NCBI RefSeq assembly: GCF_003387375.1
Contig: NZ_QUNG01000004.1
Location: forward strand, 1 to 64,000
Direction: 5' to 3'
Length of the DNA: 64,000 nucleotides
DNA from: Marinomonas pollencensis
GTDB taxonomy: Bacteria; Pseudomonadota; Gammaproteobacteria; Pseudomonadales; Marinomonadaceae
The notes under the pieces are model-generated. The model saw only the letters and a list, made by a program, of their open reading frames with translations. It made no database searches and had not been told where the DNA came from. Below, piece by piece: positions 42,855-48,112 of the stretch. A program made the position numbers and the translations under genes. Within the stretch, counting starts at the first letter, position 1. Each line of letters begins with the position of its first letter.

Positions 42855-43589
42855 ATGGGCATTGATAAGATTCTAATCACTTCTATTATTAGCTTACTCG
42901 CCTTGCCCATACTTCCTGCTTACGGCGCCAGCTCTGCCAAAGACAGCTTTTTAGTACCCTATAGCGCGGTCTACAGCACGGTTTGGAAAAAAGGCATTAC
43001 AGTAAAAGTAAAAGGCACACAAACCCTCACCCGACAAGCCGATGGTAACTGGCATTTTTCTTTTACTGCCGACAATCTTTTTGCCTCCCTGAACGAGCAA
43101 AGCACCTTTGCCGTCGATCAATACCAAATTGTCCCATCTCATTACCGTTATGAAAGCAGTGCCTTTGGTAAAAAGCGCAAAGCAGAACTGCGTTTTGACT
43201 GGTCAAAAATGAGCGTGAGAAATGACGTAAAAAACAAGCCTTGGAGCATGTCAATCAAACCCAAAACCGTTGACAAGCTGAGTGTTCAATTGCAAATAAG
43301 AGAAGATTTAAAACAGGGTAAAACCACCTTGAACTATCTTATTGCAGATGGTGGTTACACGAAGAATTGGCGCTTTAAGCGCTTACAAACAGAAACCATC
43401 GACACCACTCTAGGACGTCTTGAAGCGATCAAGGTTACCCGTATAAACGATGCTAAATCAAACAAGCAAACCTCTTTTTGGTTTGCTCCTAGCCATGACT
43501 TTTTATTGGTTAAGTTAACCCATAAAGAAAAAGACGGCGACTCTTACACCTTGGACATAGAGTCACTCAAAACAGACCCTAACTCCTAG
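42855..43589 (+). CDS. DUF3108 domain protein, exported
   Basis: 244 residues with a Sec signal peptide (MGIDKILITSIISLLALPIL, cleavage near AYGA-SS). The mature part matches DUF3108, a predicted beta-rich periplasmic protein, often encoded after purMN in this group. Function unknown. ATG 42855 with AGGAA upstream is used; the open frame extends back into purN. The 3' end overlaps the convergent mobA gene by 11 bases. Confidence 0.85.
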   Translation: MGIDKILITSIISLLALPILPAYGASSAKDSFLVPYSAVYSTVWKKGITVKVKGTQTLTRQADGNWHFSFTADNLFASLNEQSTFAVDQYQIVPSHYRYESSAFGKKRKAELRFDWSKMSVRNDVKNKPWSMSIKPKTVDKLSVQLQIREDLKQGKTTLNYLIADGGYTKNWRFKRLQTETIDTTLGRLEAIKVTRINDAKSNKQTSFWFAPSHDFLLVKLTHKEKDGDSYTLDIESLKTDPNS

Positions 43590-44157
43590 TCAGCTGGTCG
43601 TGATAATTCACATTTAATAACTCGTCTTCGTGGTGCCACAACAGTTCTGCAAAACCATGCTGGCGATAAAACCCCAACACACTGTTTTGACTGCTTTCGG
43701 CTAGCCTATTGGTCAAACACAACAAGGCACTTTCCACCGGTATAATTGCATGCAGAGGATGGATACCACTGGCACTCGCCAAACAGTGTATTTGTTCAGG
43801 TCGACTCTGACTCGCCTCTAACAGCGCCGCGAACGCCGCGCTTGAAATATTAGGCGTATCACACGGCGCCACCAAAAGATGACCGCAAGAGGCTTGGCTA
43901 AGAGCACTCCACAACCCGGAAAGCGGCCCTCGCTCAGCGTACTCATCAGCATCATGCAGCAACGGATAACCCAGCTCCTGATAATCCCTGAACTGACGAT
44001 TCACGTTTAACACGATACTCTTTGTTAGCCCTTCCATTGCCTGCGCTACACGCGCAATCATAGGCTTACCTTGGTAAAGCATAAGTCCTTTTTCTACACC
44101 ATCCATGCGTTGCGCTCGCCCTCCAGCCAGCACAACACCAGAAAACGAGCAAGCCAT
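43579..44157 (-). CDS. mobA: Molybdenum cofactor guanylyltransferase
   Basis: Joins GMP to molybdopterin to make the bis-MGD cofactor needed by NasA. 192 residues. Nucleotide-binding signature VVLAGGRAQRMDGVEKGLML at the N-terminus (LAGG, R, D-KGL positions), and APCDTPNISSAAFAAL for Mg/GTP. Its ATG overlaps the upstream stop (TAATG), and it ends the nasA operon, which explains its role: cofactor supply for nitrate reductase. Confidence 0.93.
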   Translation of the reverse strand: MACSFSGVVLAGGRAQRMDGVEKGLMLYQGKPMIARVAQAMEGLTKSIVLNVNRQFRDYQELGYPLLHDADEYAERGPLSGLWSALSQASCGHLLVAPCDTPNISSAAFAALLEASQSRPEQIHCLASASGIHPLHAIIPVESALLCLTNRLAESSQNSVLGFYRQHGFAELLWHHEDELLNVNYHDQLTRS

Positions 44158-45161
44158 TAGCCTGCCTCCCCAAGTGATAGCGCAGATTTATCTCGTTGCG
44201 ACCAGATTTCATCGGCCAAATTCAAACAAGCGTCATGGGATACGACACCAAACACCAAACCTGCCACTGAGGCTAAGGTCTGCCTAACCGCTTGCTCACC
44301 AAAGGGGTCGATACACTTACCTTGCCAATGTTCGGCTAACCGAGATAAATCTAAATTGTCTTTACGACGCTTATGCTCTTGCTCGGCTTTTGGCCAGCCA
44401 GTCCAAGAAGAAACGCCTTTTTGTCGCTTACCCAACACTACATCACGCTCAGGGTTAACTTCCGCCTCGCCATTACCGCCTCGAAAAATCAGCACGGACG
44501 GGTCTTCTAACTGCTCAGATGCTTCTAAATGTAAGCTGTCATAGCCTTTATGAAAGACCCCATGAACACTGTGTGTCGCAGAGAATGGGTTCATCATACG
44601 CACCACGGTATTGACCGGTGAACGCAAACCTAAAATATATTTAAGATCCATCATTTCACTGAGTTTAGGGTGAATATTGGCTAATGATATATAGGCGAAA
44701 TGACGCTCTGCTAATTGTTGATCCAGCTCCTCTGCCGTTTCACACAAAGGCCAGTTAAATGCCTCTAACACCTGGTCCACATAAATACGCTCTTCGCCGC
44801 GGAACGAGTGCCCATGCATCACAGTATTCACACCGCTATTTGCCAACGCCAAGGCGGATAATAAAAACCAAGGTAGCTCATTACGCTTACCAGCATAACT
44901 AGGCCAGTCTAATTGTACCGCTTGTTGAGGCGCGCTTTGTTGTGCCAAGAATCGACGTGTCGCACGGGTGAAGCCAACGGTTTCCTCTACGGTTTCTTCG
45001 CGGATCCGAATTAGCATCCAAAACGCCCCCATCTGCTCAGGCGCCACTGAGGTGGTGAGGATCAACCACATCGCTTGTTCCGCTTCTTGCACCGTTAAAC
45101 TACGAGCCCCTTTTCTGCCACGACCTAGTATTTTAACAAATTGCGTAAACGCCTGACTCAT
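44157..45161 (-). CDS. TrpD2/YbiB-like glycosyltransferase-family protein
   Basis: 334 residues with the anthranilate-phosphoribosyltransferase fold of the TrpD2/YbiB type, found beside nasA in many gammaproteobacteria. FVKILGRGRKGARSLTVQEA at the N-terminus matches YbiB; the phosphoribosyl loop of true TrpD is altered (HGHSFRGEERIYVDQ). E. coli YbiB binds nucleic acid and is damage-inducible, but its role in nitrate assimilation is unclear. ATG 45161 overlaps the nasA stop by four bases (ATGA), so the longer frame to 45233 is not used. Confidence 0.85.
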   Translation of the reverse strand: MSQAFTQFVKILGRGRKGARSLTVQEAEQAMWLILTTSVAPEQMGAFWMLIRIREETVEETVGFTRATRRFLAQQSAPQQAVQLDWPSYAGKRNELPWFLLSALALANSGVNTVMHGHSFRGEERIYVDQVLEAFNWPLCETAEELDQQLAERHFAYISLANIHPKLSEMMDLKYILGLRSPVNTVVRMMNPFSATHSVHGVFHKGYDSLHLEASEQLEDPSVLIFRGGNGEAEVNPERDVVLGKRQKGVSSWTGWPKAEQEHKRRKDNLDLSRLAEHWQGKCIDPFGEQAVRQTLASVAGLVFGVVSHDACLNLADEIWSQRDKSALSLGEAG

Positions 45162-47830
45162 GCAGATAACTCCATTTCTTTTGGTATAAAGTGTTTCAAT
45201 TCGGGAATGCAGGAACCGCAATTGGTACCGCATTTTAGTCTAGCGCCTAGCGCTTCAACTGATTCAGCGCCAGATGCTATGGCTTTCTCGATTTGTTTAC
45301 TACCAATTTGATAACAAGAACAGACAATATTCCCTTTATCTTCAACATTGGCCGGCGAACCTACCAATAACGCGACTCGATCAGGCTCAGATAACGGCTC
45401 ACTTGCAACCAAGTTAGACAATAACCAGTCTGCTGACACAGCTTCAGGCCGATTGCTAAAATACATGACTGTGTCCAACTTTTCATCACACACACACGCC
45501 AAGCGACGCTGACCTGTCGCCTCATTGTTATATTCCAGCCACTGTATTTGCCCTGTTTCTAAGAGGGTAAATGTTGCTTTTAAGCTTTCAATAGCGACCC
45601 CTTTAGGCCAGATAACCTCATAGCGGAAGCCATTATCAGAGGGAATAGCGCACCAATAAAGCGCCTCAGGAAAACATTGAGGGCGCCTTGACACCACCAA
45701 CCCATAGCGCAGGTCTTGTATCGCCTCTAACTGGACAACCGCATGCTTAGATTCAGGCTGACCGGATAGGTGATCAACCGTTTGCGGAATCAAATTGGAT
45801 ACTACGGCCGCATTGGCAAATTGTTGGGTCCAATGAATGGGCACAAAGACTTGTCCTGGAGGAGACGCATTGCTTAAGGTTGCCTTTACTCTCACTTCAC
45901 CATAGGCCGAGCTGATCCGTGTCAGTGTCCCTTCGTTAATCCCTAAGCGCTGGGCATCCGTTGGATGCAGTGCCACATAGGGCTGACCCGTGTGCTTTGC
46001 TAAAGAAGCGGCATCCCCCGTTCGGGTCATGGTGTGCCACTGATCTCGCACACGACCAGTATTCAAGACAAAAGGCCATTTTTCAGTGGTTTGCTGCACT
46101 GGTAAGCTGGGTTTTATCGGAATGAACTGCGCTCGTCCATCCCCCGTGAAAAAATGACCATCACTAAACATGCGCTCAGTTCCCTCAGGCCTCCCCTCAG
46201 GAACAGGCCATTGAGTCGGCGTAAACGCATCGTATTCGCGCTGGCTAATATGACGATAATGACCAATATCAAAATCACGCTTACCCTCATTTTCAAACGC
46301 AGATAAGGCGGCATGCTCGGCAAAAATCTCATGTACGCCTTGATAATCAAACGCCGCCTCAAAACCGAGCGCTTTGGCAACCTCACATATCGCCCACCAA
46401 TCATGCTTTGCTTCTCCAGGTGGTGGCAGTAGCCCTCGCTGGCGAGATATTCTTCGTTCAGAGTTGGTCACCGTGCCATTTTTTTCGCTCCAACCGGTGG
46501 CAGGCAACAAAACATCCGCCATGACGGTGGTGTCTGTGTGCGCCTTGCAATCGCTGACGATCACCAATTCGCACTTTTCTAATGCTCTTTTAACTTGCGC
46601 GGTATCCGGCAAACTCACCATAGGGTTGGTGGACATAATCCACAACACTTTTACTTTACCTTCTTCCACCGCCTGAAATAAATCGACAGCTTTTAGCCCG
46701 TTTTGCGTGGCCATATTTGGCGCCTGCCAAAACCGCTGCACCAAATCCAGCGCACCAGGCGTAGCAAAATCCATATGCGCAGCCAGCTGATTGGCTAATC
46801 CACCTACTTCTCTGCCACCCATGGCATTTGGTTGCCCGGTAATGGAAAAAGGCCCTGCACCTTCTTTTCCTAAGCGAGCGGTTGCCAAATGACAATTAAT
46901 AATCGCATTGCATTTATCTACCCCTGATGACGACTGGTTGACCCCTTGGGAGTAGAAAGTCACGGTTTTATCCTGGCTCGCCCACCACTCACAAAGAGTG
47001 GCCAATTGCGCTTCCTCTAGGCCACAAAATTCAGCCGTGGTAGATAAATCTGGGGTGGATTCAATCGCTTGTTGTAACGTTGCTTGAAAATGGCTGGTAT
47101 GTTGAGCGATAAAATCCCTGTCCACTAAACCAAGACGCGCAGACTCCTGAAGTAAAAAGCTAAAGATCGCGGCATCGGAACCTGGACGAATCGCCAGATG
47201 CAAATCGGCAATATCACAGGTTGCTGTCGCACGTGGATCAATCACCACCACTTTCATTTCAGGTCGCTGTTTTTTTGCGGCGACAATGCGTTGAAACAGG
47301 ATTGGGTGCGTCCACGCCGCGTTAGACCCCACCATAATAAGCAGGTCACATTGTTCTAAATCATTGTAGTTACAAGGTACAGTGTCGGAACCAAATGCCC
47401 TTTTGTAGCCCACCACCGCAGATGCCATACATAGCCTGGAGTTAGTATCGACATTGGCGGTACCAATAAAGCCCTTGGCCAATTTGTTGGCAACATAATA
47501 GTCTTCCGTCAGAATCTGTCCCGACAAATAAAACGCAAACGCATCTGCACCATGCTCTTTGACCACTTGTGAGATTTTATTCGCAACGGTGTCGATGGCG
47601 TTATCCCATGTCGTTGCGTGCCCTGCCACATGCGGCACCAGTAAACGGTCATCGGAGTTCAGGGTCTGCGCTAAACTGCTTCCTTTTACACACAAACGCC
47701 CGAAATTAGCCGGGTGAGCTGAGTCCCCAGACACCGGAGGGACAACCCCATTGGGTTGCGCAGGAAGCGTTACATTTACGCCGCACCCTACGCCACAATA
47801 AGGACAGGTTGTACTAACGGTTGTTGTCAT
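45158..47830 (-). CDS. nasA: Assimilatory nitrate reductase catalytic subunit
   Basis: Reduces nitrate to nitrite in the cytoplasm with bis-MGD and Fe-S. 890 residues. The 4Fe-4S site is CPYCGVGCGVNV at 9-20 with a fourth cysteine in FGRLCVKGSS. MGSNAAWTHPI and YSQGVNQSSSG are in the Mo domain. The C-terminal 55 residues add a BFD-like 2Fe-2S domain (VCSCYQIG ... CGTNCGSCIPEL), so it probably takes electrons directly from a flavoprotein, likely the one at 51088-52332. It has its own sigma-54 promoter and antitermination leader; the SD AGGAGC is only about six bases after the terminator U-tract. Confidence 0.96.
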   Translation of the reverse strand: MTTTVSTTCPYCGVGCGVNVTLPAQPNGVVPPVSGDSAHPANFGRLCVKGSSLAQTLNSDDRLLVPHVAGHATTWDNAIDTVANKISQVVKEHGADAFAFYLSGQILTEDYYVANKLAKGFIGTANVDTNSRLCMASAVVGYKRAFGSDTVPCNYNDLEQCDLLIMVGSNAAWTHPILFQRIVAAKKQRPEMKVVVIDPRATATCDIADLHLAIRPGSDAAIFSFLLQESARLGLVDRDFIAQHTSHFQATLQQAIESTPDLSTTAEFCGLEEAQLATLCEWWASQDKTVTFYSQGVNQSSSGVDKCNAIINCHLATARLGKEGAGPFSITGQPNAMGGREVGGLANQLAAHMDFATPGALDLVQRFWQAPNMATQNGLKAVDLFQAVEEGKVKVLWIMSTNPMVSLPDTAQVKRALEKCELVIVSDCKAHTDTTVMADVLLPATGWSEKNGTVTNSERRISRQRGLLPPPGEAKHDWWAICEVAKALGFEAAFDYQGVHEIFAEHAALSAFENEGKRDFDIGHYRHISQREYDAFTPTQWPVPEGRPEGTERMFSDGHFFTGDGRAQFIPIKPSLPVQQTTEKWPFVLNTGRVRDQWHTMTRTGDAASLAKHTGQPYVALHPTDAQRLGINEGTLTRISSAYGEVRVKATLSNASPPGQVFVPIHWTQQFANAAVVSNLIPQTVDHLSGQPESKHAVVQLEAIQDLRYGLVVSRRPQCFPEALYWCAIPSDNGFRYEVIWPKGVAIESLKATFTLLETGQIQWLEYNNEATGQRRLACVCDEKLDTVMYFSNRPEAVSADWLLSNLVASEPLSEPDRVALLVGSPANVEDKGNIVCSCYQIGSKQIEKAIASGAESVEALGARLKCGTNCGSCIPELKHFIPKEMELSA

Positions 47831-47840
47831 GGCGTGCTCC

Positions 47841-47952
47841 TAAACGAAAAAAAGCCCAACCGCATCTGTTACAATGCGATTGGGCTTCGTTGCCTTTTTA
47901 TGATATTCGTCTGCTTTATGTGACAGCCTTCATCGGCCCTCGGTGCAGTATG
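47841..47952 (-). promoter_or_regulatory. nasA leader: NasT (ANTAR) antitermination region
   Basis: RNA leader between the predicted sigma-54 start and nasA. At 47883-47894 (minus strand) GGC-AACGAA-GCC forms a hexaloop hairpin with A at position 1 and G at position 4, the ANTAR target pattern; its 3' GCC is also the 5' arm of the terminator at 47847-47887, so the two folds exclude each other. A second possible hexaloop, GGCC-GAUGAA-GGCU, is at 47925-47938. Nitrate-released NasT would stabilise the hairpins and allow read-through into nasA. Confidence 0.72.
47847..47887 (-). terminator. Attenuator terminator directly upstream of nasA
   Basis: AGCCCAAUCGCAU pairs along 13 positions with AUGCGGUUGGGCU (one G-U pair), followed by seven U, all within 40 bases upstream of the nasA start. 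A full terminator in front of a gene rather than behind one is the mark of antitermination control. Confidence 0.9.
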
Positions 47953-47962
47953 CCTAACTAAA

Positions 47963-47979
47963 AGCAAATACCAGGCCAA
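47963..47979 (-). promoter_or_regulatory. Sigma-54 promoter for nasA
   Basis: Minus strand TTGGCCTGGTATTTGCT: GG and GC separated by exactly 10 bases, with consensus TTGGC and TTGCT. The predicted start is near 47952. It implies that nasA can be transcribed separately from nirBD under nitrogen control. Confidence 0.72.
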
Positions 47980-48095
47980 CATTAAAAACCACTCAAGCAA
48001 AAAAAATTTTAACCTTAAAATTCAATGAGTTATGTGAACTCAAGATGTTACAAGAGAAAAAAGCAAAGGAGCGCTCAGCAACCACCTCTCTCTCG

Positions 48096-48112
48096 CGCAC
48101 CATAAAGGAGCC
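48096..48112 (-). promoter_or_regulatory. NtrC-like enhancer site upstream of nasA
   Basis: Plus strand CGCACC-ATAAA-GGAGCC. It matches the NtrC dyad TGCACC-N5-GGTGCA at 9 of 12 positions and lies about 120-130 bases upstream of the sigma-54 -24 element, a usual enhancer distance. A further TGCACC half site is at 48117-48122. Confidence 0.5.

Follow-up and report, generated by a model that had tools for sequence, protein, structure and literature searches.

The window analysed here, a 64,000-nucleotide stretch of Marinomonas pollencensis DNA, carries a nitrate assimilation cluster on the minus strand in the order nasT, nasS, nrtA, nrtB, nrtD, nasB, nirB, nirD, nasA, followed by genes for a YbiB-like protein and a MobA-like nucleotidyltransferase (Table 1). 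The name NasS was assigned on the basis of fold family and position beside nasT, not of a curated NasS model, and NCBIfam gave no name for NasT and returned NasA names only below cut-off. NasT was the sole ANTAR protein found in the genome, and its gene lies in the same cluster as both leaders described below. NtrC (TIGR01818, 761.9 bits) and RpoN (TIGR02395, 505.6 bits) are encoded in the genome, as are several other NtrC-family activators.

The YbiB-like and MobA-like genes 3′ of nasA (43579-45233) are retained in most of the genus, and the MobA-like protein may serve NasA's molybdenum cofactor, a possible reason for nasA being a separate unit. Upstream of nasT (58058-58024), a sigma-54-like string, TTGGCTCTTTTGGTGCA, and an NtrC-like site, GGCTCCACTTTTGTGCA, were observed. 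A shared nasT sigma-54 promoter was sought across the genus, and a string similar to TTGGCTCTTTTGGTGCA was present only in the window and in two congeners (L112, L134).

Table 1. Genes and leader elements of the nas cluster, in order of transcription (window coordinates).
Feature	Coordinates	Strand	Description
nasT	57883-57215	minus	receiver and ANTAR domains
nasS	57218-56028	minus	NMT1-like binding protein, predicted nitrate/nitrite sensor; adjoins nasT
nrtA sigma-54 promoter TTGGCATAGTCCATGCT	55904-55888	minus	putative; kept across the nrtA leaders of Marinomonas
nrtA leader attenuator	55806-55729	minus	putative; P1 to T7 terminator; model R1 82.7 bits (among the 26 sequences building R1)
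nrtA P1 GTTC[ATGACT]GAAT	55804-55791	minus	loop without G4, which nearly all congeners retain
nrtA P2 GGC[AAAGGC]GCC	55779-55768	minus	
nrtA	55708-54290	minus	
nasB (name used here)	52332-51088	minus	NirB-N-terminal-like reductase
nirB	51025-48467	minus	
nirD	48455-48126	minus	
NtrC-like dyad GGCTCCTTTATGGTGCG	48112-48096	minus	10/14 consensus matches; centre ca. 150 bp upstream of predicted start
nasA sigma-54 promoter TTGGCCTGGTATTTGCT	47979-47963	minus	putative; -24/-12, GG-N10-GC; start predicted near 47952
nasA P1 domain	47948-47911	minus	predicted outer stem CTGC/GCAG (47948-47945 with 47914-47911) around P1 hairpin and asymmetric internal loop
nasA P1 hexaloop hairpin GGCC[GATGAA]GGCT	47938-47925	minus	purine 1, G4
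nasA P2 antiterminator hairpin GGC[AACGAA]GCC	47894-47883	minus	A1/G4
nasA intrinsic terminator stem	47888-47851	minus	16 bp by scan and fold, ca. 13 bp strong core; 5′ arm makes use of the 3′ arm of P2
nasA terminator T7 run	47853-47847	minus	
nasA SD	47841-47837	minus	ATG at 47830
nasA	47830-45158	minus	assimilatory nitrate reductase: molybdopterin, 4Fe-4S, C-terminal BFD-like [2Fe-2S]; orthologues in relatives

The gap between nirD and nasA measures 295 bp (48125-47831, minus strand). When the window was re-scanned, the elements named in a first-pass annotation were recovered at the same positions or within one base. The terminator had been described as a 13-bp stem with seven U; the seven T's stand, and the longer stem listed in Table 1 contains those 13 bp approximately as its core. 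It is located ca. 17 nt 5′ of the nasA start codon and 3′ of the sigma-54 promoter, and the terminator scan found none between nirD and that promoter. The second hexaloop, noted earlier only for departing from A1, is read here as the upstream P1 hairpin of a P1/P2 pair. It does have G1 in the window, but it is unlikely to be a failed copy, because among nasA leaders of the genus G1/G4 is the most frequent type of P1 loop.

Simple motif counts failed to part signal from chance. The sigma-54 string was found once in the 64 kb against 1.1 expected, which is not significant singly, and P2-like strings are common, GGCAANGNNGCC occurring 64 times in the genome. The elements are considered to exceed chance because of the fold energy and the conservation of the whole arrangement. 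P2 together with the terminator folded at -26.1 kcal/mol (z = -7.0 versus shuffled sequences; z = -4.6 for the leader fold). The sigma-54 site, P2 overlapping the terminator, and nasA followed in the same order in 28 of the 29 testable congeners (36 same-genus genomes were available for comparison), and the sigma-54 site was at the same position and of the same string class in 28/29. The exception, L029, has a nirD-nasA gap of ca. 110 bp with neither promoter nor attenuator.

Alignment of 22 nasA leaders showed an unchanged P2 stem in all of them and an identical AAAAGGCAACG around it, and every nasA leader having P2 carried A1/G4; P2 being invariant, its support comes from conservation only. 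The terminator covaried, its 17 double-change cells (4.8 in shuffles) being reached by none of 500 shuffles. In the P1 loop, G4 was present in 22/22 leaders, G1 in 18 and A1 in four, and a C-G pair closed the loop of both P1 and P2 throughout. Read by eye, more divergent leaders (L024-L026, L030, L031) also included both kinds of P1 loop, L027 and L028 being ambiguous. The nasA P1 was paired in ca. 90% of cells and hardly covaried beyond shuffles.

The Marinomonas nasA leaders have 26-27 nt of sequence between P1 and P2. In P1 folds computed for the 22 leaders, a conserved outer stem is formed by CTGATGC with GCA..CAG in most leaders and by CTGC/GCAG in the window, and with this stem the linker would be 11-12 nt by alignment columns, or 16 nt counted from the window's own stem end. 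The outer stem was paired in 92% of cells and an alternative register added a few compensated pairs; among the 22 aligned leaders the covariation of P1 and the outer stem was not significant. Because covariation is weak, an outer stem that encloses P1 and shortens the linker is offered as a prediction.

A leader of the same composition, with its own sigma-54 promoter, P1, P2 and terminator (55904-55729), opens the nrtA-nrtB-nrtD-nasB-nirB-nirD operon. This cassette was found in all 28 congeners examined, the promoter string being weaker in L135. Its P1 covaried strongly in the genus (32 double-change cells against 12.6 shuffled, 0/500 shuffles), in support of a P1/P2 structure for the leader family as a whole; relatedness among the sequences can raise counts of this kind. 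The first-pass annotation had nasA wired independently of nirBD, a claim that appears not to hold, as the nrtA-nirBD operon has its own copy of the cassette and the two units appear to share one regulatory logic.

Covariance models were built from Marinomonas nrtA leaders only (R1) and from nasA leaders (R2). Both include the window's sequence, and each confidently found only its own leader in the genome, two leaders of this type in all, matching the single ANTAR protein. Rfam, at the gathering threshold and at permissive E-values, returned nothing meaningful, and no family recognised the leader RNA. Many nrtA leaders of the congeners show an additional hairpin upstream whose loop reads AACGAT or AATGAT. 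A third hexaloop-like hairpin 5′ of P1, e.g. GAGC[AACGAT]GCTT with A1/G4, was observed in nrtA leaders L117, L118, L121 and L123-L128 and in the window (55850-55821), where its loop is of seven nucleotides, GACGACT.

The NtrC-like dyad reported earlier is present, but alone it is a weak match at chance level: at up to three mismatches 18 dyads were found versus 27 expected, and p was ca. 0.09 within the dyad's own upstream region. In the sister species L003 the orthologous site, GGCACCTTTATGGTGCA, has 12/14 consensus matches. Genus-wide, the mean dyad score was 15.7 upstream of nasA and 13.8 upstream of nrtA against 12.1 in genomic and shuffled controls, a comparison of related, non-independent species in which p-values overstate the case. 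Only via the sister species site and this enrichment does the window's dyad become a credible candidate for NtrC binding.

Several other explanations were weighed. If the hairpin were merely the terminator of the nirBD operon, with nothing regulatory after it, the hexaloops would be coincidental; there is nothing unusual about a terminator following nirD, and GGCAANGNNGCC, with 64 genome sites, is common. The hairpin is, however, located 3′ of a sigma-54 promoter that the genus conserves, so that nasA's own transcript also has to pass it; P2 stays constant, whereas the terminator changes and covaries; and the layout recurs before nrtA and is retained at nasA in 28/29 congeners, so that a mere nirBD terminator is highly improbable. 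Translation-coupled attenuation by a leader peptide was considered as well, since the ATG in the P1 loop opens a five-codon frame, ATGAAGGCTGTCACATAA, and the frame is very short in most relatives. It was rejected, with a probability close to nil, because the ATG is not conserved among relatives (absent in L015, L017, L019, L020, L022 and L023); furthermore, the frame runs without an early stop in L018, no ribosome-binding site was seen, and the known NasT mechanism accounts for the layout.

Two milder alternatives concern single parts of the cassette. With G1 in place of A1, the window's P1 might be non-functional, NasT acting via P2 alone or the nasA response being weak compared with that of nrtA; in the nasF leader neither A1 nor G4 could be dispensed with (PMC3369936), P2 is kept more strictly than P1, and covariation of the nasA P1 is weak. 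This is unlikely, given that P1 retains its paired stem, a C-G pair at the loop and, in 22/22 leaders, G4, that A1 and G1 alternate at the same place among relatives, and that G1 recurs in the nrtA P1 of L123, L124, L127 and L136 and in a Methylomonas leader (L081). The sigma-54 promoter might, on the other hand, be genuine and served by an enhancer-binding protein other than NtrC, for which the chance-level dyad and the several other NtrC-family activators of the genome would speak. The nas genes of Klebsiella are NtrC targets. Dyad enrichment upstream of both nasA and nrtA, the 12/14 site in the sister species and the NtrBC control of nas in Paracoccus (PMC5424462) argue for NtrC, and another activator is considered quite unlikely.

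That the nirD-nasA gap holds a NasT-responsive ANTAR attenuator behind a sigma-54 promoter is, judged from sequence comparison, very probable; the conservation, the covariation and the encoded NasT-NasS, NtrC and RpoN strongly support this central proposal of the first-pass annotation. We infer that under nitrogen limitation NtrC-P would activate the nasA promoter, and RNA polymerase would produce a leader that folds into the terminator by default. When nitrate or nitrite is present, NasS would free NasT, as in Paracoccus, and a NasT dimer would presumably bind the loops of P1 and P2. With P2 held, the terminator stem would lose its base, and transcription would continue into nasA and its downstream genes. 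In this way one AND rule would govern both nasA and the nrtA-nirBD operon. As no terminator was found from nirD to the nasA promoter, read-through from nirBD must pass the nasA attenuator, which would act as a second gate.

Searches with R1 found leaders in the nas clusters of many other genera, with mostly A1/G4 loops and in many cases sigma-54-like sites. A nasA gene behind nirD with its own cassette was found in a Thiotrichales bin (L055, E 0.0017) and, as a weak match (E 0.4), in Guyparkeria (L033), where nasA has its own sigma-54 site, P1 and P2. The nas genes of Oceanospirillum sanctuarii (L058) are accompanied by several P2-terminator elements, and the Methylomonas leader again shows G1. 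The leaders in L055, L033 and L058 indicate that nas clusters with multiple gates are not unique to Marinomonas. Two weak model matches (L193, L194) were dismissed on inspection as chance.

R1 also matched in front of a gene for a chemoreceptor-like protein with an MCP-signalling domain in two congeners (L191:1840-3092 in G029 and L192:1904-3145 in G024). The next gene in both encodes a NIT-domain (nitrate/nitrite sensing) protein, followed in G029 by that for an EAL-domain protein. All four congeners with the NIT protein (L191, L192, L202, L203) have TGGCATCATTATTGCTT, P2 GGC[AAAGGC]GCC and a terminator there, the sigma-54-like site, P2 and terminator standing a short way 5′ of the MCP-signalling-domain gene (25 nt in L191 and L192). 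In the four congeners the upstream hairpin was without a clear A1/G4 hexaloop, and the chemoreceptor-NIT operon is absent from the window's genome. A NasT-controlled chemoreceptor operon in these four Marinomonas genomes is possible. R2 in turn matched an orphan nasA-type leader in G005 and G012 (L189, L190), in which the promoter, P1 and P2 loops are degraded and which had no nas gene in the 5.5 kb of sequence examined; it is probably a relic or, less likely, a small RNA.

More tentatively, and with somewhat less than even confidence, one NasT may read two leader builds. The nrtA leader would offer a compact P1 (mostly A1, linker ca. 10 nt) and the nasA leader a nested P1 (mostly G1), the outer stem folding most of the spacer away; the exception would be the window's own nrtA P1, from which G4 has been lost, and the regulon of some congeners would extend to the chemoreceptor-NIT operon. 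If true, ANTAR recognition tolerates either purine at loop position 1 and an inserted helix, transport and nitrite reductase versus nitrate reductase could respond in graded fashion to the same signal, and in some congeners nitrate assimilation is linked with taxis. With nrtA and nasA leaders paired in approximately 28 species, one NasT presumably serving both, evolution offers a well-conserved natural series that may reveal the sequence rules of ANTAR RNA recognition (A1, linker length, P1 shape) and allows them to be put to direct test. It also appears that nas clusters can bear several NtrC/NasT gates in series and not one at the front.

The nasF promoter of Klebsiella is of the NtrC/sigma-54 type. 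The nasFEDCBA operon of Klebsiella oxytoca, controlled by NasR, is likewise a nitrate assimilation operon with P1 and P2 hexaloops, P2 lying over the terminator, and ANTAR antitermination on nitrate, and its nasF leader unites the same kinds of parts (PMC3369931, PMC3369936). It differs in having one leader for the whole operon against two in the cluster described here, in NasR, which senses nitrate itself via a NIT domain in place of the NasS-NasT pair, and in A1 in both loops where P1 here has G1. SELEX with NasR selected a C-G closing pair, A1 and G4 (PMC7496416), a consensus to which the Marinomonas nasA P1 comes close with its purine 1, G4 and C-G closing pair. In Paracoccus denitrificans, binding of NasT to the nasA leader RNA takes place in the presence of nitrate (PMC3795266). 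The leader hairpins there have been analysed by mutation, and nasT has a known NtrC site, whereas none was found for nasA (PMC5424462). As in Marinomonas, nasTS adjoins the nas genes of Paracoccus, whereas one leader precedes nasABGHC in place of two per cluster.

The eut cluster of Enterococcus faecalis, for which we know of no sigma-54 promoter, resembles the present one in its dual-hairpin ANTAR RNA and in having several attenuators and one ANTAR protein, EutV. The eut P1-P2 linker is 5-12 nt long, and 14 nt drastically cut induction (PMC3369931), in contrast to the 26-27 nt of nasA unless the outer stem shortens the spacing. A1 is needed both in Klebsiella nasF and in EutV targets, whereas the Marinomonas nasA P1 mostly has G1. 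Some of the leaders described here may already figure among the ANTAR targets predicted previously (PMC3369931), the literature comparison having covered open-access papers. By its sequence, the nasA leader appears to match the tested features of known ANTAR leaders, the picture being mixed for strict A1 in P1 and a short linker, and to be a well-preserved case of an established mode of regulation that adds a few new twists.
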